Source: Acidobacteriota bacterium
GTDB taxonomy: Bacteria; Acidobacteriota; Thermoanaerobaculia; Gp7-AA8
Assembly: GCA_016184115.1 (NCBI GenBank)
Contig: JACPDH010000052.1
Coordinates: forward strand, 1-64,000
Direction of reading: 5' to 3'
DNA length: 64,000 bases
The position numbers were made by a program, and so were the translations under genes. The stretch's first letter is position 1; each line of letters starts with the position of its first letter. A model generated the notes under the pieces. The model was not told the origin of the DNA, did no database searches, and saw only the letters and a list, made by a program, of their open reading frames with translations. Below, piece by piece: positions 2,616 through 58,935 of this stretch.

Positions 2616-2637
2616 GAAGACGCTGCATCGAGCAGCG

Positions 2638-2789
2638 GCTTGTCAGCCGAATCCCCGTCAGGCAACGGGGAGCGGGGGACCCGATATTCAGGCGACGGCT
2701 TGCCACCGTCCGGGGTGAATCCGGCTCAGGCCGGACGGGCGTCCAGCCCGAATCCGACAGCTAACCCCGCAGGCACCGGAACGACAGGC
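2638..2789 (+). promoter_or_regulatory. cyclic di-AMP riboswitch (ydaO/yuaA class)
   Basis: An RNA aptamer that binds two c-di-AMP molecules. Hallmark blocks of the class occur in order: CCGAAUCC after the 5' strand, GGGGGACCC (2674-2682), GGGGUGAAUCC (about 2712-2722), and the highly conserved 3' block from GCCCGAAUCCG to ACAGCUAACCCCGCAGGC (about 2747-2774). The ends GCUUGUC (2638-2644) and GACAGGC (2783-2789) pair as P1. It begins just after a TTGACA promoter and runs directly into a strong intrinsic terminator, the layout of a transcriptional OFF switch. No ORF starts right after the terminator. The next genes on this strand are tRNA-Phe, rnc and the wall-hydrolase-activator envC. The class is known to control cell-wall and osmolyte genes, so envC is the natural target, but this is inference. 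Confidence 0.88.
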
Positions 2790-2791
2790 GA

Positions 2792-2828
2792 GAAGAGGCG
2801 CCGCCCCGCGCGGCGCTTCTTCTTTTTT
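2792..2828 (+). terminator. intrinsic terminator of the riboswitch expression platform
   Basis: A 13-bp stem, GAAGAGGCGCCGC (2792-2804) with GCGGCGCTTCTTC (2810-2822) including one G-U pair, has a CCCGC loop and is followed by six T (2823-2828). It begins two bases after riboswitch P1, so ligand binding is expected to control readthrough. Confidence 0.9.
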
Positions 2829-2869
2829 GCTGGAAATTGCGAGCGCGTTCCTGCCGTTCTTCCTGCGCG

Positions 2870-2898
2870 TTGACACGACGGGCGCGCTCGATTATCGT
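2870..2898 (+). promoter_or_regulatory. promoter of tRNA-Phe
   Basis: TTGACA (2870-2875), a 17-base spacer and TATCGT (2893-2898), about 29 bases before the tRNA 5' end. It lies downstream of the riboswitch terminator, so the tRNA can be made independently of the riboswitch. Confidence 0.55.
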
Positions 2899-2926
2899 TC
2901 GCGTCTCGCCGCGGTCGCGGCTGTTG

Positions 2927-3002
<76 letters not shown>

Positions 3003-3016
3003 CTCGAATCCACTCC

Positions 3017-3037
3017 GCCCCGCCGATATGGCGGGGC
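3017..3037 (+). terminator. GC-rich hairpin after tRNA-Phe, weak terminator
   Basis: GCCCCGCC (3017-3024) pairs with GGCGGGGC (3030-3037) across a GATAT loop, followed by GATTTGCTT. The U tract is poor, so readthrough into rnc is possible. The ATG at 3028 lies inside this hairpin and is not a credible rnc start. Confidence 0.45.
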
Positions 3038-3072
3038 GATTTGCTTCGGGCGATGCCTCCAATTCCGTGCGC

Positions 3073-3078
3073 TATACT
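3073..3078 (+). promoter_or_regulatory. -10 element of rnc (near-leaderless)
   Basis: TATACT lies 9 bases before the GTG start of rnc, which would put transcription start within about 0-4 bases of the start codon. No clear -35 is seen. Confidence 0.4.
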
Positions 3079-3087
3079 GCCGCCGTC

Positions 3088-3819
3088 GTGCATTTGACGA
3101 ACGAACTGCTCAACGACTTCGAGTCGCGGATCGGCCACCGATTCGGCGACCGCTCGTGCATTATCCGTGCGCTGACGCACAAGTCGTTTTTCCACGAGAC
3201 GCGCGATGCGAGCCCCGGCGACAACGAGACGTTCGAGTTCCTCGGTGACGCCGTGCTTGGCTTCGTCATCGGCGACGCGCTCTTCCGACGTTTCCCCGCG
3301 CTCGACGAAGGCGCCCTCTCGAAGATCAAGGCCTTCATGGTGAGCGCACCCGCGCTTGCGGCCAAGGCACGGCTCTCGGGAATGGGAGAGATGCTCCTGC
3401 TGGGAGTCGGCGAGGAGAAGTCGGGGGGACGTCGCAAAGACTCGCTGCTGGCCAACGTCTTCGAGGCAGTCGTCGCCGCGGTCTATCTCGACGGCGGAAT
3501 CGAGGCTGCGCGCGACCTGATCCTCCGCACCTTTTCCGCTGATCTCGAGCGGATCGACGCACGCGATCTCCTCTTCCAGGACTACAAGACGGCGCTCCAG
3601 GAAATCGCGCAATCGCGCGGACTGCCGCTCCCCGAATACCGTGTCGTCGACGAATACGGCCCTGACCACGAGAAGCGTTTTGTCGTGGAGGTCACTTTCG
3701 ACGCGGAGATCAGCGCCCGAGGCGAGGGCTCGTCGAAAAAGGAAGCGCAGCAACAGGCAGCCAAAGAGGCGCTGCGCCATTGCGAATCTCGGCTCGCCAC
3801 GCCGTCGCGAGGCGAGTGA
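3088..3819 (+). CDS. rnc: ribonuclease III
   Basis: Cleaves double-stranded RNA in rRNA and mRNA maturation. From GTG 3088 the protein is 243 residues, the usual length. The N-terminal nuclease domain has the signature motif NETFEFLGDAVLGFV with the catalytic acidic residues, and the second acidic site at the end of the domain, NVFEAVVAAVYLDGG. The C-terminal double-stranded RNA-binding domain, from about residue 165, starts DYKTALQEIAQ and ends in the typical KKEAQQQAAKEAL. An upstream in-frame ATG at 3028 adds 20 residues with no family similarity and lies inside a hairpin. GTG 3088 begins where family similarity starts and follows a TATACT box. The stop overlaps the GTG proposed for envC by 4 bases, suggesting translational coupling. 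Confidence 0.95.
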   Translation: MHLTNELLNDFESRIGHRFGDRSCIIRALTHKSFFHETRDASPGDNETFEFLGDAVLGFVIGDALFRRFPALDEGALSKIKAFMVSAPALAAKARLSGMGEMLLLGVGEEKSGGRRKDSLLANVFEAVVAAVYLDGGIEAARDLILRTFSADLERIDARDLLFQDYKTALQEIAQSRGLPLPEYRVVDEYGPDHEKRFVVEVTFDAEISARGEGSSKKEAQQQAAKEALRHCESRLATPSRGE

Positions 3820-51454: not shown

Positions 51455-52822
51455 CTACCACTCTTCCTTCTGCTTCTCGAGCACCTTCGTAACGTAGGTT
51501 TCCGGATTCGTCAGCTTCGCAACTTCCGCGTCGGAGTAGCCGAGATCCTTGAAATTCAGCGCACCGCCAACGGTGTGGCACTGAAAGCAGGTCAGAGCGT
51601 TCTCCTTCGTCACAAGATGGCTGCTGCCGAAGTAGAGCGTTTGCCATCCGGGGGTAGGCTCATAGTCCTTGATTCCGAGCGTGCTCGCCGCGGAGGCCAC
51701 TCCGGCGAGCACGTCGCCGGTCGCCATTGGCGGGGCAAAGTCCATCGAGAGCAGCTGACCGCTCTTCTTGTCGAAGAACGCCTTACCCTGGTAGACCTTG
51801 AACGGGTAGATCTTGCTCGTCCCGTCGTTTCGGCTTCCATCGGGGCCGATGAAGTGAGGCGTGTTCCGTACCCGCAGGTTGTACCACGCATAAACGGGCT
51901 TTGTGGAATTCGCCTCGGCCTGAATCGTGCCGGGTTCATAAAACTTGTCGGCACCCTGCTCCCACCTGGTGAAGTCCTTCGCCATCGTCCCGCCGGTGCG
52001 GGGAATGTGGCAAGTCTGGCAGGCAAGTTTCGCTGTGTGCCTGTTGTAGTCCTGGTCTGCGTGAGGCTCCGCGCCATGGCAATCGCTGCACGCGACGCGC
52101 AGTCCGTCATTCGCCCACGTGTTAGGGTCGAAGCCGGTAGGCAGCTTGTGGTTCTGCGCCTTGTGACAATCGACGCACGTCATCCCCATCGCCGCGTGAA
52201 CGTCGTTCTCCCTCGTGAATTCGAATCCCCGCTTTACGTAGATGCCGCCACCTGCTCGCTCATGGCAGACCATGCAGTTCTTCGCAGCCGGCCTCCCCAC
52301 CGCCAGCGCCGCCGCGGTGGAGCGGTCCTGCCCCATCACGACCTGACCCTTCCCGTCCTTGAAGGGCACTCGCTTCGTGAAGTCGTATGCTGACGAGTGA
52401 CAGACGAGGCAGTCGATCGCATTCTCGGCCTCGGGACCCGTGCTTCCGACATCGCTCAGGTGGTTCCCGGGATGGCAGGTATTGCACCCCGTGAACTTGC
52501 TCTTCCCCGTCTCCGGGTTCACGGGAATCTCCTTCAGGTTGTTCACGACGTCGTTCCCGTTGCACATCGTGTAGATGCGGTTGAACATCCCGTACTCTTT
52601 CTCCGCATCCAGGCCATCGACATTCGTCACGGGCGACGCGTGCTTCCAGTGGACCGTCGAAAGGAGCTCCTTCGCCTTGCCGGGATGACACTCCTCGCAC
52701 GTGGACGGTCCGTTGTACCCGCTCGCCTCGATCGACGCCCTGCCGGGATGCTCCTCGGCCAGTCCCGGAGCTGTTGCAAGGGATGCGAGCGCGAGCGCCA
52801 TCAGCAAACCACGGATCTTCAT
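51455..52822 (-). CDS. exported octahaem c-type cytochrome, tetrathionate-reductase/HAO-like family
   Basis: A 455-residue periplasmic protein with a signal peptide (residues 1-22, ending GLAE) and eight CXXCH haem sites: CEECH, CNTCH, CLVCH, CMVCH, CVDCH, CSDCH, CQTCH and CFQCH. The order and surrounding residues (HWKHASP after haem 1; DCLVCH; NCMVCHERAGGG; NDVHAAMGMTCVDCHKAQNH) follow the octahaem tetrathionate reductase pattern. A lysine for the active-site haem is not evident in the CXXCH motifs and could come from elsewhere in the chain, as in that family. It is the last gene of the molybdopterin/NrfD operon and may be the terminal reductase, or an electron conduit toward the barrel encoded upstream. 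Substrate (tetrathionate, thiosulfate, nitrite, hydroxylamine or metal) cannot be told. Confidence 0.88.
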   Translation of the reverse strand: MKIRGLLMALALASLATAPGLAEEHPGRASIEASGYNGPSTCEECHPGKAKELLSTVHWKHASPVTNVDGLDAEKEYGMFNRIYTMCNGNDVVNNLKEIPVNPETGKSKFTGCNTCHPGNHLSDVGSTGPEAENAIDCLVCHSSAYDFTKRVPFKDGKGQVVMGQDRSTAAALAVGRPAAKNCMVCHERAGGGIYVKRGFEFTRENDVHAAMGMTCVDCHKAQNHKLPTGFDPNTWANDGLRVACSDCHGAEPHADQDYNRHTAKLACQTCHIPRTGGTMAKDFTRWEQGADKFYEPGTIQAEANSTKPVYAWYNLRVRNTPHFIGPDGSRNDGTSKIYPFKVYQGKAFFDKKSGQLLSMDFAPPMATGDVLAGVASAASTLGIKDYEPTPGWQTLYFGSSHLVTKENALTCFQCHTVGGALNFKDLGYSDAEVAKLTNPETYVTKVLEKQKEEW

Positions 52823-52908
52823 CGTTCGTTCTCGCTTTCGGTTGTTTGGCTTCTCGTGATCGCCGCGCGCCGCCCCGAACCTTGTGGCCGGAAACGGCGC
52901 GCGTGAGA

Positions 52909-53235
52909 TCAGCAGCCGGCAGTCTTGCGGAAATAGTTGCTGACGTTCTTGCCGTCAACTGACTTGTACTTGCAGCGGATCTCGTCCCCTTCGACGATGC
53001 GATGGTCCTTGAACTTGTCGAGTGTGAGCTCGTCGTTGATCACGATCTCGACGAGTTTCTCCGTCTTCGTGTCCTTGAGGATCGCCGTCGCCGTCGTTGC
53101 AGCAGGACCGGCGATCTTGATCTTCGTGATGACTCCCACCAGCTTCATTTCGGCCGACTGCGCGAGTACGGTCATCGAGAACGCGCAGACGGCGAACAAC
53201 GTGGCAACCGCCAGCACGAGAGTTCGCTTCTTCAT
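52909..53235 (-). CDS. small exported protein of the respiratory operon
   Basis: A 108-residue protein with a signal peptide (residues 1-26, ending VLAQS), then ~80 residues predicted as a small beta-barrel (LVGVITKIKIAGPAATTATA; LVEIVINDELTLD; GDEIRCKYKSVDGKNVSN). It ends in a lone C-terminal Cys (TAGC). AAGGAG lies upstream of ATG 53235. The pattern could be OB-fold-like. It has no haem or metal motif. Position between barrel and octahaem cytochrome suggests an accessory or assembly role; no family is recognised. Confidence 0.8.
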   Translation of the reverse strand: MKKRTLVLAVATLFAVCAFSMTVLAQSAEMKLVGVITKIKIAGPAATTATAILKDTKTEKLVEIVINDELTLDKFKDHRIVEGDEIRCKYKSVDGKNVSNYFRKTAGC

Positions 53236-53351
53236 TTCGATTCTCCTTCCAAGGGGTGCCGGACCGAGTGTGGTCCGGCGGTTTGCGCCCGAGGCGTATT
53301 CGCTCCCGAGCTGGGCGGGGACTTCCGCCCCCGCCCTAACAGGCGCGTCGG

Positions 53352-55016
53352 TTAGAAATGAACTTCGAAGGTCGCGTAGAAATCCTGCGCCTTCTTCAGA
53401 GGGGCCGTCAGTTGTGGCGTCATGTTGTTGAGGGAATCGATCTTGATCGGCGCGCCGAGCCAGCTGTTGCTTCCCGTGTAGTCGAACGAGTAGTACTGAT
53501 AGCCGAACTTGAAGAACGCCTTGCTGAGATACGAAGAGATCGGCTTCAGCGCGAGCTCTTTGATGAGATAGGTTTCGTACACGTCGCCACGAACGCCGAG
53601 CTTGGCGGTCCACATGTCGTCCGCTGCCGGCGTAAAGGTGATCCAGTTCTCGGAACCGTGGTTGTATTCGAAGCCGATCTTGGTGTTCGACGACGGAAGG
53701 TCATACCTGCCGCCTGCGTAAATCGCCCAACCGTTGGTATCTTCAGGCATGCCGCTGAAGAGCAGCCCATAGCCGCTGTCGAGGCCGGCGAACTGCAGCG
53801 TATTGCCGTTAGGGTGAGTCTGGCTGAAGCCGGCTGACACGAACCAGTTCAGATTGCCCGGGCCGACGTTCTTCGCCATACCCATGAAGTCGAGGCTCTC
53901 CCAGTCGATATCGCCGATATTCGTGGCCGGGGCGAGAGGGAACGGTCCGGAGAGCATGATCGGCGCGTCGAAGATGTCCATCCCGCGGTTGTACTGGAAT
54001 TGCGCACGGAACCGGTCGGTCTCGTAGGCCACGAGGTCGAGGCCGATCATGTCGGTGTTGTCCAGGCCGTTACCGATGTCATCGCGCTGGATCTCGGTTT
54101 GATATCCCCTTCCATAACAGAGCTTCGCGGAAGCTCCGGGAAGGGACTCGATCTCGGGAGCCCACCCGAGCGACACGCCGTCGAACGCGTAGTCGACGAG
54201 GAGCGCAGGAACTCCTGAAACGCCAGGTGCGGGCAGGTCCTGCCTCAGATGGCCAGGCGCACCTCCGGTCGACGGCCGACGGCCGATCGAGAACCAGATC
54301 GGTTGACCTCCGATGTTGTTCCAGGTCGCATACGCACGGTCGACGGCGAGCTTGCTGTCGCCGGGAACGTGGCCGATCGTACCGTCGAAGATGCCGGCGC
54401 GATCGAAGGAATAGGCCGTGTTTCCCGACTGAAGAGCGCGGTCATCCTGGCCCCCCGCGACTTTGTACATCAGGAGTCGCGCCGTGACCGAAACGTCCTC
54501 GGTGGCCTTCGCCTTCAGGTTGAGGCCGAATCGGTTTGTATAGAGCGAATCGTTACTGACGTCGTACGCATTCTGCATTGCCGACTGGAGGGTGAGAGGA
54601 CCGTAGGTTCCTCCCATGATGGCCGCACCAAAGAGCGACTGCTGGTCCATCGGGGGAATCGCGCCCGACATCATCGCGGAAACGAGCTGGCTGGCGTTGC
54701 CGAACACGGTCATGCCGTCCGCGTAAGGCGCTACGTCACCCTGGAGACTGTCGAACCGGAATCGGTAATCGCCACCGATTGTGAGCCAGCGGCCTAGAGA
54801 CTTCCTCTCCGTCGTGGCAATCTGCTGCTCGAGCTCCTCGATCTTCTTCGTCTGCTCCTCGTTCTGCTTGACCTGCGACTTCAGCGCCTCGAGCTCGCGC
54901 GACATTTGTTCGATCTTCTGCTTCAGATCGTCCTGCTCGTCCGCCTTCGCGCGTAGCGGAAGGACGAACGCGATCATTGCGAAGGCGACGAGAACCACTC
55001 TTGCCAGTTTGCTCAT
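53352..55016 (-). CDS. outer-membrane beta-barrel (DUF3373-like porin) with coiled-coil N terminus
   Basis: A 554-residue exported protein from ATG 55016 (GGAGAG upstream). The signal peptide spans residues 1-25 (LPLRAKA). A periplasmic coiled coil (~27-75, DLKQKIEQMSRELEALKSQV) is followed by repeated alternating strands ending in aromatic residues, starting WLTIGGDYRFRFDSLQGDV and closing FYATFEVHF with the C-terminal Phe of barrel proteins. No haem motifs. It resembles DUF3373-family barrels seen beside multihaem cytochromes, where such barrels may bring electrons or substrate across the outer membrane. The open frame extends to 55139 without signal-peptide character. Confidence 0.8.
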   Translation of the reverse strand: MSKLARVVLVAFAMIAFVLPLRAKADEQDDLKQKIEQMSRELEALKSQVKQNEEQTKKIEELEQQIATTERKSLGRWLTIGGDYRFRFDSLQGDVAPYADGMTVFGNASQLVSAMMSGAIPPMDQQSLFGAAIMGGTYGPLTLQSAMQNAYDVSNDSLYTNRFGLNLKAKATEDVSVTARLLMYKVAGGQDDRALQSGNTAYSFDRAGIFDGTIGHVPGDSKLAVDRAYATWNNIGGQPIWFSIGRRPSTGGAPGHLRQDLPAPGVSGVPALLVDYAFDGVSLGWAPEIESLPGASAKLCYGRGYQTEIQRDDIGNGLDNTDMIGLDLVAYETDRFRAQFQYNRGMDIFDAPIMLSGPFPLAPATNIGDIDWESLDFMGMAKNVGPGNLNWFVSAGFSQTHPNGNTLQFAGLDSGYGLLFSGMPEDTNGWAIYAGGRYDLPSSNTKIGFEYNHGSENWITFTPAADDMWTAKLGVRGDVYETYLIKELALKPISSYLSKAFFKFGYQYYSFDYTGSNSWLGAPIKIDSLNNMTPQLTAPLKKAQDFYATFEVHF

Positions 55017-55061
55017 ACTCTCTCCTAGTTGTTCTTTCCTATCAGGGATCGTTTTCGGTAG

Positions 55062-55080
55062 GAGGCCGGCAATCGGCCTC
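55062..55080 (-). other. short intercistronic hairpin in the respiratory operon
   Basis: GAGGCCG and CGGCCTC with a 5-base loop, in the 153-base gap between the NrfD-type gene and the barrel gene. No U tract follows. It may set relative expression of the membrane complex and the barrel. The rest of this gap shows no gene. Confidence 0.35.
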
Positions 55081-55169
55081 ACACGTGTCAAAGACTCAAC
55101 AGCTGCCACGTCCCATCGGAACGACAGAAGCGGTGGCAAGTTGGACGAACGCGTTAGGCTCTCGCGTGT

Positions 55170-56123
55170 TCATATCGACGCCTGGCCCGCGAGCACGAGG
55201 ATCCACCGGAGCGCGAGGCCGCCAACGAGCAGAAGCACCGGCGCGACAATCGCGGGGCGCCACCCCTTCTGCGTCTCAGCCAGTTCGATCGCGAGCGGCA
55301 CGATGAGCCCCGAGATGACGACGAGCACCCAGAAGGGGCCGGTGTAACTTCCTCCGAAAAAGAGGTCCACCGCGGCCTGTCCCTTCTGTCCGCCATTCGC
55401 GGCGAGCTCGACGAAGAACATCGCGAGAAGCACGATCTCGAGGCCGATCGCGCCAGTGTCCCAGCGCCGCAGCATCGCGTGCTCCTCGTGTCCGAGCCGG
55501 AAGAGCATCATGAACGCGGCGCCCGTCGACACGCCCGAGACGAGAAACAGCGGCCCCAGGATGACCGTGCTCCAGAGAGCGCGTGCGCCTAACGTACCGA
55601 GAAGAATCCCGGTGTACCCGCCAAGAGCAATGCCGAGGATGACGTTGGCTCTTTCGAGTTGCGGAGCCCTCGACGTGGCGATGTCGCGGAGACGCGAGAC
55701 GATCGCGGCCAGGCGGCCGCGAAAACGTCCGGTGCGAGGCAGCGCTGCCATCTCTCCATCACTGAGTCGCGCGAGACCGAGGAGAATCGTCGCCGGATAG
55801 ATGAGCAGGAGAATCCATGAGCCCCACGACATCGGCGATGTCGGTCTCATCGCGGTGTAGAAGCGAAAGACGTGGAGCTTGTACTCGAGGTCGAGAAAGA
55901 GCGCGCCCATGCCGAGCGACAGCAGAATCGGCGCGGCGAACGGCAGGAGCCGCATCGCGCGCGACTGCGACTCCCGCGGAAGTCCTCGGCCGGCGAGCGC
56001 CGTCAGGATCATCAGCCCGGCGGTCAGCCCTCCGAGAAACAGGTAGACCGGGATCTCCCAACCCCACACGTGAAGCTGCGGATCGATCGGAGCGCTGTTT
56101 CGGAACAGCTCGATTTCGGTCAT
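55170..56123 (-). CDS. NrfD/PsrC-type integral membrane quinone subunit
   Basis: A 317-residue inner-membrane protein with about eight hydrophobic helices, of the NrfD/PsrC family that exchanges electrons between quinones and the ferredoxin-like subunit. It opens with DPQLHVWGWEIPVYLFLGGL (family start), then GLMILTALAG, LLSLGMGALFLDLEYKLHVF and FRFYTAMRPTSPMSWGSWIL. Helix VSTGAAFMMLFRLGH lies near residue 200. AAGGAG lies before ATG 56123. It follows the four-cluster ferredoxin gene in the operon, the standard PsrABC layout. Confidence 0.92.
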   Translation of the reverse strand: MTEIELFRNSAPIDPQLHVWGWEIPVYLFLGGLTAGLMILTALAGRGLPRESQSRAMRLLPFAAPILLSLGMGALFLDLEYKLHVFRFYTAMRPTSPMSWGSWILLLIYPATILLGLARLSDGEMAALPRTGRFRGRLAAIVSRLRDIATSRAPQLERANVILGIALGGYTGILLGTLGARALWSTVILGPLFLVSGVSTGAAFMMLFRLGHEEHAMLRRWDTGAIGLEIVLLAMFFVELAANGGQKGQAAVDLFFGGSYTGPFWVLVVISGLIVPLAIELAETQKGWRPAIVAPVLLLVGGLALRWILVLAGQASI

Positions 56124-56142: not shown

Positions 56143-56697
56143 TCAGACCAGGAAGTAGAGGTTCGGCTCCGTCCCCTCCTCCGGGCTCAGGAGCTTCGAC
56201 GTGCGCGAATGGAGCAGCCGCGCAACGTCGCTCGACGGGTCATTGAGATCGCCGAATGCGAGTGCCTTCGTCGGGCAGCCTTCGACGCAGGCTGTACTCG
56301 CTCCCTTCGTGACGCGGTGCATGCAAAAGGAGCACTTGTCGACGTAGCCGTCGGGGTGAACGTAACGCGCGCCGTACGGACATGCCGCGACGCACGCCTT
56401 GCACCCCGTGCAGAGGGCGCGATCGATCTGGACCGTCCCACCCTTCGCGAAGTGGCTGGCGCCCGTCGGACAGTTCGTTACGCAGGGCGCGTTGGTGCAG
56501 TGCATGCAACGTTCCGAGCGGATCTCCATCGAGAGGTGCGGGAATTCCCCCTTCGTCTCGGTCACGATCCAGTCGCGGTAGCCGTTGACGGGCACGCCGT
56601 TCTCCGCCTTACATGCCAGCACGCAGGTTTGGCAGCCGACGCATCGGCGGGTGTCCATGACCATCGCGTAGCGCGTGCGGTAGTTCTTGAAGAGCAT
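56143..56697 (-). CDS. four-cluster 4Fe-4S ferredoxin-type subunit (PsrB/NrfC/DmsB family)
   Basis: A 184-residue electron-transfer subunit linking the catalytic subunit to NrfD. Four cluster motifs are visible: CVGCQTCVLACK (residues ~19-30), CMHCTNAPCVTNCP (~64-77), CTGCKACVAACPYGA (~96-110) and CSFCMHRV...CVEGCP (~121-140). It has no signal peptide and is probably exported with the Tat-tagged catalytic subunit. ATG 56697 follows the stop of the molybdopterin gene by one base. Confidence 0.94.
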   Translation of the reverse strand: MLFKNYRTRYAMVMDTRRCVGCQTCVLACKAENGVPVNGYRDWIVTETKGEFPHLSMEIRSERCMHCTNAPCVTNCPTGASHFAKGGTVQIDRALCTGCKACVAACPYGARYVHPDGYVDKCSFCMHRVTKGASTACVEGCPTKALAFGDLNDPSSDVARLLHSRTSKLLSPEEGTEPNLYFLV

Positions 56698-56698
56698 C

Positions 56699-58935
56699 TC
56701 AGGCCTCCGCGCGCGAGATTCGGACGAAGTTGACGTTCATCCCCGTTCCGCCCATGACCGGGTCGACCTTGAATCGGGTCGTCAGCGCGCTGTCCGACGC
56801 CCCCCTGTTCCGCGAGAAGCTCAAGCCTTTCGCGGTGTGCCCGAAACCGTGAACGAGATAGACCGCATCGCCGCGAATTCGCTCGGTGACCTTCGCCTTC
56901 ACGGGGCCGCTCTTTGCGCCGTCCTGGTTCACGAGCATCACGTAGTCGCCCGACTTCAAAGGCTTCTCTTCGAATCCCGCGAGCGATCGCGCCGCCCGAG
57001 CATTGATCCACACCTCGTTCTCGCTCATGAGACCGCCTAATACGCGGTTATTCGTCGTGCGACCGAACGTGTGCATCGGCGCGCGCCCCGATAGCAGACG
57101 GAACATCCCGGGCGGAACTTCATCCGGAGGAGTGAATTCGGGGAGAGGGTCGAATCCGGCGTCGGCGAGCGCCTGGCTGTAGAGCTCGATCTTCTCGCTC
57201 GGCGTCCCGAATAGGAGCTCGAGCCCCTCTTCTTCGCACACCGGGACGATTTTTCCCTTCACGACGCCGTCGCGCAGCGCTGCCTCTGGGTCGTGGCCCG
57301 AGCCTTCCAGGCGCCAGCGGATGTTCTCCAGCGGATCCTTCCACGGGAAGACCTCGGGGAGGCCGAGCCTGTTTGCGAGCTCCTTTGCGATCCACCAACC
57401 CGGCTTCGATTCGTACATCGGCTCCACGGCCGGCTGGCGAACCGCGATGAACGGCGCTTTGTAGCTTGCCGCCCACAAGTCGTCATACCGCTCGAGATAG
57501 GTCGATTCCGGCAGGACGATGTCGGCCCACCCGACGATCTCTGCTGGAAGCACGTCAATCGCGACGAGCAGGTCGAGCTGCTGGATTGCATCTGCGGTGC
57601 ATCTGCGGTCTGCTTCGGGTTAGGCAACGACTGCATCAGGTTCGTGCCGTAGACCATCCAGCCCTTGACGCCGTAAGGCGCTGCGCTCACGGTCGCGTCG
57701 CAGATTCCCGACGCGAGCAGCTCGTTCGCCATTGGATAGTGCTCTGGCGTCGGTCGGTCGGCGGACTCGGCCATCGAGCGCCCCGTGTCGGCCGGCGGAT
57801 ACTTGCGGAGGCCCATCGACGACGGAACGAGGTATCCGCCGCGGCGCCCCCAGCTGCCGAGCAACGCGGCGAGGATCGCGATGCAGCGCACCCTCTGGGT
57901 GTCGTCACCGTACCAGGTGACGTGCCGGCCAGGATGGATGAGTGAGGCGGGACGGAACGCGGCGATGAATCGCGCAGTCTCGCGGATGAGTCCGGGATCG
58001 AGCCCCGTGATCGGGTGAGCCCACTCGGGAGTCTTGTCGGCGACGTGCTGCTCGAGCTCGGCGAGGCCGATCGCGTTCGCCGCCAGATAATCGGAGTCGT
58101 AGCGCTTCTCGCTGACGATGACGTTCATCCAGGCGAGAAGGAGCGCGATGTCGGTTCCCGGCTTGATCGGCAGCCAGTACCGCGCCTTGCTCGCCGCGAT
58201 CGAGTACCGAGGATCGACGACGACGAGTTGCGCTCCAGCGCCGATCGCGTCCGCGAGCTCCTGAACCTGCGTGTTGTGCATGTTCTCGCCGAGGTGCGAA
58301 CCGAGGAGCGTGAGGCAACGAGCGTTCCGGATGTCGATTGCTTCCGGCGAGCCGACACCCTGTCCGAACGTGAGCTCGAACGCCGTCTCGCGCGGGCCTC
58401 GGCACTGCGCGTACGACGGCGCGACGACGTTAGGCGTACCCCATGCCTTCACCAGCTGCGTGAACCAGGAACCGCCGTAGCCGTGAGTGAAGAGCGCGAG
58501 TGCCTCCGCGCCATACCTCGCGCGCAGCCGCTCCATTCGCGAGGCAGTCTCGTCGAGTGCCGCATCCCATGAGACTTCCTCGAACTTGTCCTCTCCCCGT
58601 TTCGACACGCGAAGCATCGGTTTCTTGAGCCGATCGGGGTCGTAGAGCGCGCCCATCCCACCTGTCCCGCGTGGACAAAGGCGACCGTTCGAGAGCGGGT
58701 GCTTCGGGTTCCCGACGATCTTCGTGACGCGACCGTCGCGCACGTGCGCCAGGACGCCGCACTTCCAGAAGCAGAGCTCACAGAAGGTGGCGACGACCTT
58801 TTGTCCGTCAGTCTGCGGATCGGGGAGCTCATGCGCCTGGAGGCTCCACCAATCGGTGGTCAGTCCCGAACCGAGCGCCGCAACGCCGGCGCTCGCGGAT
58901 CCGACCTTGATGAACTGGCGACGCGACAGTGGCAT
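56699..58935 (-). pseudogene. Tat-exported molybdopterin oxidoreductase (PsrA/PhsA-like), split by an 11-bp duplication
   Basis: Catalytic subunit of a periplasmic CISM respiratory complex. The 5' part (58935 to ~57600) has a twin-arginine signal (SRRQFIK, residues 4-10), the 4Fe-4S motif CELCFWKC plus a fourth Cys (CPRG, residue 87), and a candidate Mo ligand Cys178 in YAQCRGPRET. After NPKQTADA (~57610) the frame breaks, and the original frame would end near 57259 in low-complexity sequence. In the shifted frame the protein continues as IQQLDLLVAIDVLPAEIVGW, then ADIVLPESTYLERYDD, through to the 56699 stop with the C-terminal domain intact. Without one 11-bp copy the frame is 742 codons, uninterrupted. 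It may be a true pseudogene, a phase-variable allele or an assembly error. The GTG at ~57553 could allow separate translation of the tail, but this seems unlikely to give an active enzyme. Confidence 0.85.
57588..57609. repeat. perfect 11-bp tandem duplication in the molybdopterin gene
   Basis: GCATCTGCGGT occurs twice in direct succession (57588-57598 and 57599-57609; plus-strand reading). It adds 11 bases, shifting the frame. Loss of one copy rejoins the two conserved halves exactly. Confidence 0.97.

Follow-up and report, generated by a model that had tools for sequence, protein, structure and literature searches.

A real, single and very recent 11-bp tandem duplication has probably shifted the reading frame of the catalytic subunit of a PsrABC-type molybdoenzyme complex in the lineage sequenced as Acidobacteriota bacterium assembly GCA_016184115.1. 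The gene lies on the minus strand of the window, meaning here the whole stretch of 64,000 nucleotides that was analysed, and extends from 58935 to 56699. On the forward strand GCATCTGCGGT is present twice, back to back and with no mismatches, at 57588-57609 (22 bp), which confirms the exact double copy reported in an earlier note on this DNA. The unit reads ACCGCAGATGC on the coding strand, and together with 1 bp of shared flank the period-11 array covers 23 bp (57587-57609). A double copy of this kind, as a 22-mer, was absent from all shuffles of the window even when three mismatches were allowed.

The duplication is located at nucleotide 1327 of the gene. In the two-copy state the gene region (56699-58935) measures 2237 nt, a length not divisible by three, and frame 0 meets a stop after 558 amino acids. 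With a single copy it measures 2226 nt and consists of 741 codons and a stop, uninterrupted, so the normal protein that had been predicted on removal of one copy is indeed obtained. A codon-usage Viterbi scan that was blind to the repeat called a strong frame switch precisely at 57588. The frame as it stands (57259-58935, minus strand) holds 558 codons, of which approximately 446 are native and approximately 112 are out of frame before the stop, and the C-terminal coding part continues in the shifted frame at 56699-57586 with the end of the molybdopterin domain and the Molydop_binding domain. Two local causes of the duplication were considered and set aside. Microhomology was rejected, as the borders read from the sequence have just 1 bp in common, so that no longer direct repeat underlies the duplication. 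The local hairpin, which might stall replication, is unexceptional (z = -1.3), with 14 of 200 shuffles folding equally well.

The two halves of the interrupted gene match consecutive parts of one protein, in agreement with the earlier reading that a single CISM catalytic subunit has been broken. By Pfam, the upstream half carries a Tat-type signal, an Fe4S4 domain and the beginning of a molybdopterin domain, and the downstream half carries the remainder of the same molybdopterin domain and a dinucleotide-binding domain (PF10518, PF04879, PF00384 and PF01568 over both halves, PF10518 scoring 22.1 bits, slightly below its cut-off of 22.7). The best solved relative of both parts is 2VPW chain A, with the runner-up far behind; the N-terminal part aligns to residues 2-448 (E 1e-115) and the C-terminal part to residues 457-745 (E 7e-97). 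We take 2VPW to be the Thermus protein described as "thiosulfate reductase" chain A, or PsrA. Similarly, the halves align one after the other to the PhsA model (2-452 and 450 onward), and against the thiosulfate reductase equivalog of NCBIfam, which has a cut-off of 694 bits, they score 290 and 153 bits when taken separately. As judged from these alignments, the gene is a PsrA/PhsA-type molybdopterin oxidoreductase and the catalytic subunit of a PsrABC-like complex.

Further genes of the operon follow on the minus strand. A PsrB/NrfC-like 4Fe-4S subunit (56143-56697) starts 1 nt past the stop of the catalytic gene and is followed by an NrfD-type membrane subunit (55170-56123), a DUF3373 protein (53352-55139 as the listed ORF with a TTG start, the true start probably lying further in), a small secreted protein (MKKRTLVLAV..., 52909-53236, a by-eye reading inside a longer ORF) and an octahaem tetrathionate-reductase-like multihaem cytochrome c (51455-52822). 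The catalytic, Fe-S and NrfD subunits thus stand in the same order as in the PsrABC polysulfide/thiosulfate reductase of Thermus (2VPW), with both gene halves aligning to PsrA. In contrast to the Thermus complex, the catalytic gene here is interrupted and the operon extends into DUF3373 and the octahaem-type cytochrome. Among the loci compared, this extension of a PsrABC-like operon (51455-55139) occurs only in the window and in the sole other genome of the same genus among those searched (G001), where the arrangement is scattered across several contigs. In the operon genes that can be compared with G001, neither stops nor frame breaks were found, and the 4Fe-4S, NrfD, DUF3373 and cytochrome genes are intact; the earlier description of the remaining operon as intact is therefore borne out.

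Homologues of the catalytic gene were drawn from 100 related genomes and the organism's own genome, and in addition from a genome collection. In 95 of 95 readable homologous loci (49-88% identical) there is neither an insertion or gap nor a stop at the duplication site. These loci amount to 85 distinct 40-residue windows, and as some genomes were counted in both searches, 85 is the safer number. The same-genus genome G001, which is 88% identical over the portion of the gene that it holds across the site, is likewise without an insertion and reads ACC GCG GCG GCG ATC where the window, in its one-copy reading, has ACC GCA GAT GCA ATC. Since all 95 loci are ungapped at the site, the comparison indicates that the one-copy state is ancestral and that the second copy is derived and private to this genome. 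Neither a further copy or allele of this region nor a close paralogue was found in the organism's own genome; the best paralogue there has 30% identity (E 5e-33), and the distant CISM paralogues that were found have open frames, except for one TGA codon that is probably selenocysteine. A separate frame break was seen in one homologue from a deltaproteobacterial MAG (L047:9100-9260), near a six-A run and away from the duplication site.

Evidence on the age of the event comes from the comparison with G001. The dN/dS ratio is 0.094 upstream of the site (269 codons) and 0.105 downstream (297 codons), values that are averaged over the entire divergence from G001 (dS about 0.8) and so establish no more than selection on the gene through almost the whole of that time. 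The operon partners give 0.097 for the Fe-S subunit, 0.19 for NrfD, 0.14 for DUF3373 and 0.12 for the cytochrome. There is no rise in dN/dS past the site as would mark relaxed selection, and no other stop or gap was found in the catalytic gene over the part held by G001. Because the gene is without decay and the remaining operon is open, the frame break appears to be either very recent or an artefact; with the duplication private to this genome, the suggestion of a recent event made in the earlier note stands. A fixed pseudogene, in which the enzyme has been permanently lost from the species, would fit the loss of the C-terminal domain through the frame break, but the single lesion, the flat dN/dS ratio and the intact operon partners make this highly improbable.

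It could also be supposed that an active product is still made, either through a -1 ribosomal frameshift or as a split protein through an internal restart. A -1 shift would restore the frame, and both frames are open for 361 nt. However, this zone holds neither an X XXY YYZ heptamer nor a run of five A or T or of six G or C; GTG at 57553, the first codon at which translation could restart, is not preceded by a Shine-Dalgarno-like sequence, and all homologues examined are without a gap or stop at the site. Programmed -1 frameshifting and internal restart were rejected on these grounds, and we regard recoding of either kind as extremely improbable.

An error of assembly or consensus, with the cells themselves holding one copy and an intact gene, was already raised in the earlier note and deserves closer consideration. 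Only one draft assembly, in 126 contigs, shows the duplication, an erroneous break would look as undecayed as a very recent one, and the GeneTack survey (PMC3711429) expects homology-validated singleton frameshifts to be mostly sequencing errors. Nevertheless, an exact 11-bp expansion within an N-free contig is an atypical error, and according to work on Mycobacterium tuberculosis repeats (PMC12817950) errors of assembly are expected to collapse tandem copies and not to add them. The quality of the assembly was gauged over a sample of 1.06 Mb, made up of the window and 60 other stretches with about 2.6 kb masked. A codon scan of this sample returned 14 strong frame switches, which, sorted by eye, were mostly overlapping neighbours or antisense ORFs and left about three likely true frameshifts. 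These are the present duplication, a switch in an AAA_16 ATPase at a seven-G run (L182:10293; no match in G001) and one in a large protein that has long open relatives (L125:11832); only the first lies at a tandem duplication. As there are only about three likely true frameshifts in 1.06 Mb, a background of about 3 per Mb, the assembly is fairly clean, which counts against an error. An assembly error is thus unlikely, though it is the rival that carries most weight, and a true mutation is ranked clearly above it.

Tandem arrays in the same 1.06 Mb place the duplication in context. Exact period-11 double copies are uncommon but not unique, at about 4 per Mb (4 observed against 0.4 expected under a 5th-order Markov model). 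Exact arrays with a unit of at least 7 bp that is not divisible by three number 312, and good coding sequence lies on both sides of 67 of them. A change of frame accompanies just three of these 67, and two of the three, both 7-bp arrays resembling frame breaks, were rejected as gene boundaries where adjacent genes end. No array in the sample other than the 11-bp one of the window breaks a gene, a result that argues against an assembly prone to such errors and also against a mutational hot-spot; hence tandem arrays are no general means of switching genes in the sampled part of the genome.

Two further observations concern other parts of the genome and the window. Tandem tracts of period 7 and at least 49 nt occur 16 times in the organism's own 1.06 Mb (L131:15158-15300, L138:17739-17822, L173:3718-3805, L181:18840-18961 and 12 more) with diverse units such as GTGCTGA, TTGTTAG, ATTCCGC, AGTCCTC and others. 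Apart from an all-N contig, tracts with periods of 5, 6 or 8-13 are absent from that sample, and such long tracts are absent from 1.22 Mb of relatives' loci, a rough comparison because those loci lie mostly around one operon. Near the start of the window, a GC-rich hairpin with a run of T lies downstream of a c-di-AMP riboswitch (RF00379, 2635-2790), and after it come tRNA-Phe (2927-3002) and an ORF that by eye resembles RNase III (3028-3819); no obvious ORF stands directly after the riboswitch in this interval (2635-3819).

The earlier note had also proposed that the duplication may be reversible, the two-copy state being one phase of a switch that is maintained by slippage and turns the enzyme on or off within the population. 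The exact, uninterrupted tandem copies at the frame break in an otherwise intact gene and operon are what such a switch would present, and there is a parallel in pneumococcal capsule genes, which, as cited in PMC4243769, switch by reversible sequence duplication inside the gene. In cap3A, cap8E and tts (Waite et al. 2001, 2003, as cited in PMC4243769 and PMC11272040), a short, exact tandem duplication within the reading frame likewise shifts the frame and inactivates the gene, and could be undone by the loss of a copy. In the pneumococcal cases, however, both phases and their reversion are reported, whereas here there is a single allele in one assembly and the gene encodes a metabolic enzyme. 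The array itself has just two copies and 1 bp of flank in common, nothing sets the local hairpin apart, the repeat is not conserved (an array or gap at the site in 0 of 95 homologues) and the distant CISM paralogues are open but for the TGA codon noted above. With one copy universal in relatives, no second allele in the assembly and no similar break elsewhere in 1.06 Mb, the proposal of reversible phase variation is not upheld. We consider it very unlikely, though possible in principle; a form of bet-hedging in which this Thermoanaerobaculia bacterium maintains on and off states of its respiratory molybdoenzyme side by side, as the 11-bp copy is gained and lost, is if anything slightly less likely.

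In the GeneTack survey (PMC3711429), the phase-variation class requires at least five clustered genes and a function previously linked to phase variation, and a tandem repeat at the break was also sought; the requirement for clusters of five or more genes speaks against placing the present gene there. It differs in no essential way from the singleton frameshift genes of that survey, being known from a single genome with its break validated by homology and Pfam. The frame-shifting indels and frameshift scars of M. tuberculosis (PMC8339072) are similar in that a gene is disrupted by an indel and can be restored by a later one, but that work drew on thousands of genomes, whereas the present case has a single genome and no relative in which the frame was restored or left with a scar. 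The best description is an ordinary frameshift of the singleton kind, in an enzyme that is otherwise conserved, and it is most likely real.

The preferred explanation, a true mutation, would act as follows. A single 11-bp tandem duplication would have arisen in the sequenced lineage and shifted the frame of the catalytic gene, so that translation would yield approximately 446 native codons and approximately 112 wrong ones before the stop at 57259-57261. A product ending there would lack the C-terminal cofactor-binding part, and the enzyme would be inactive as a result; we infer both that the sequenced cells truly carry the mutation and that function is lost through it. About 560 nt separate the premature stop from the Fe-S gene downstream, whose expression may be reduced through a polar effect. 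Reversion by slippage can occur, as for any tandem duplication, with no sign here of its use as a switch.

With a single broken gene in a single draft genome, the present significance of the finding is small. In practice, automatic annotation would score the complex as incomplete or split the gene in two, although selection on the enzyme in this lineage evidently lasted until very recent times. If both alleles did occur in one population, an uncultured environmental lineage would be switching a respiratory enzyme by slippage, and a mixed on/off state, if true, would place bet-hedging in anaerobic respiration and not in a surface structure.
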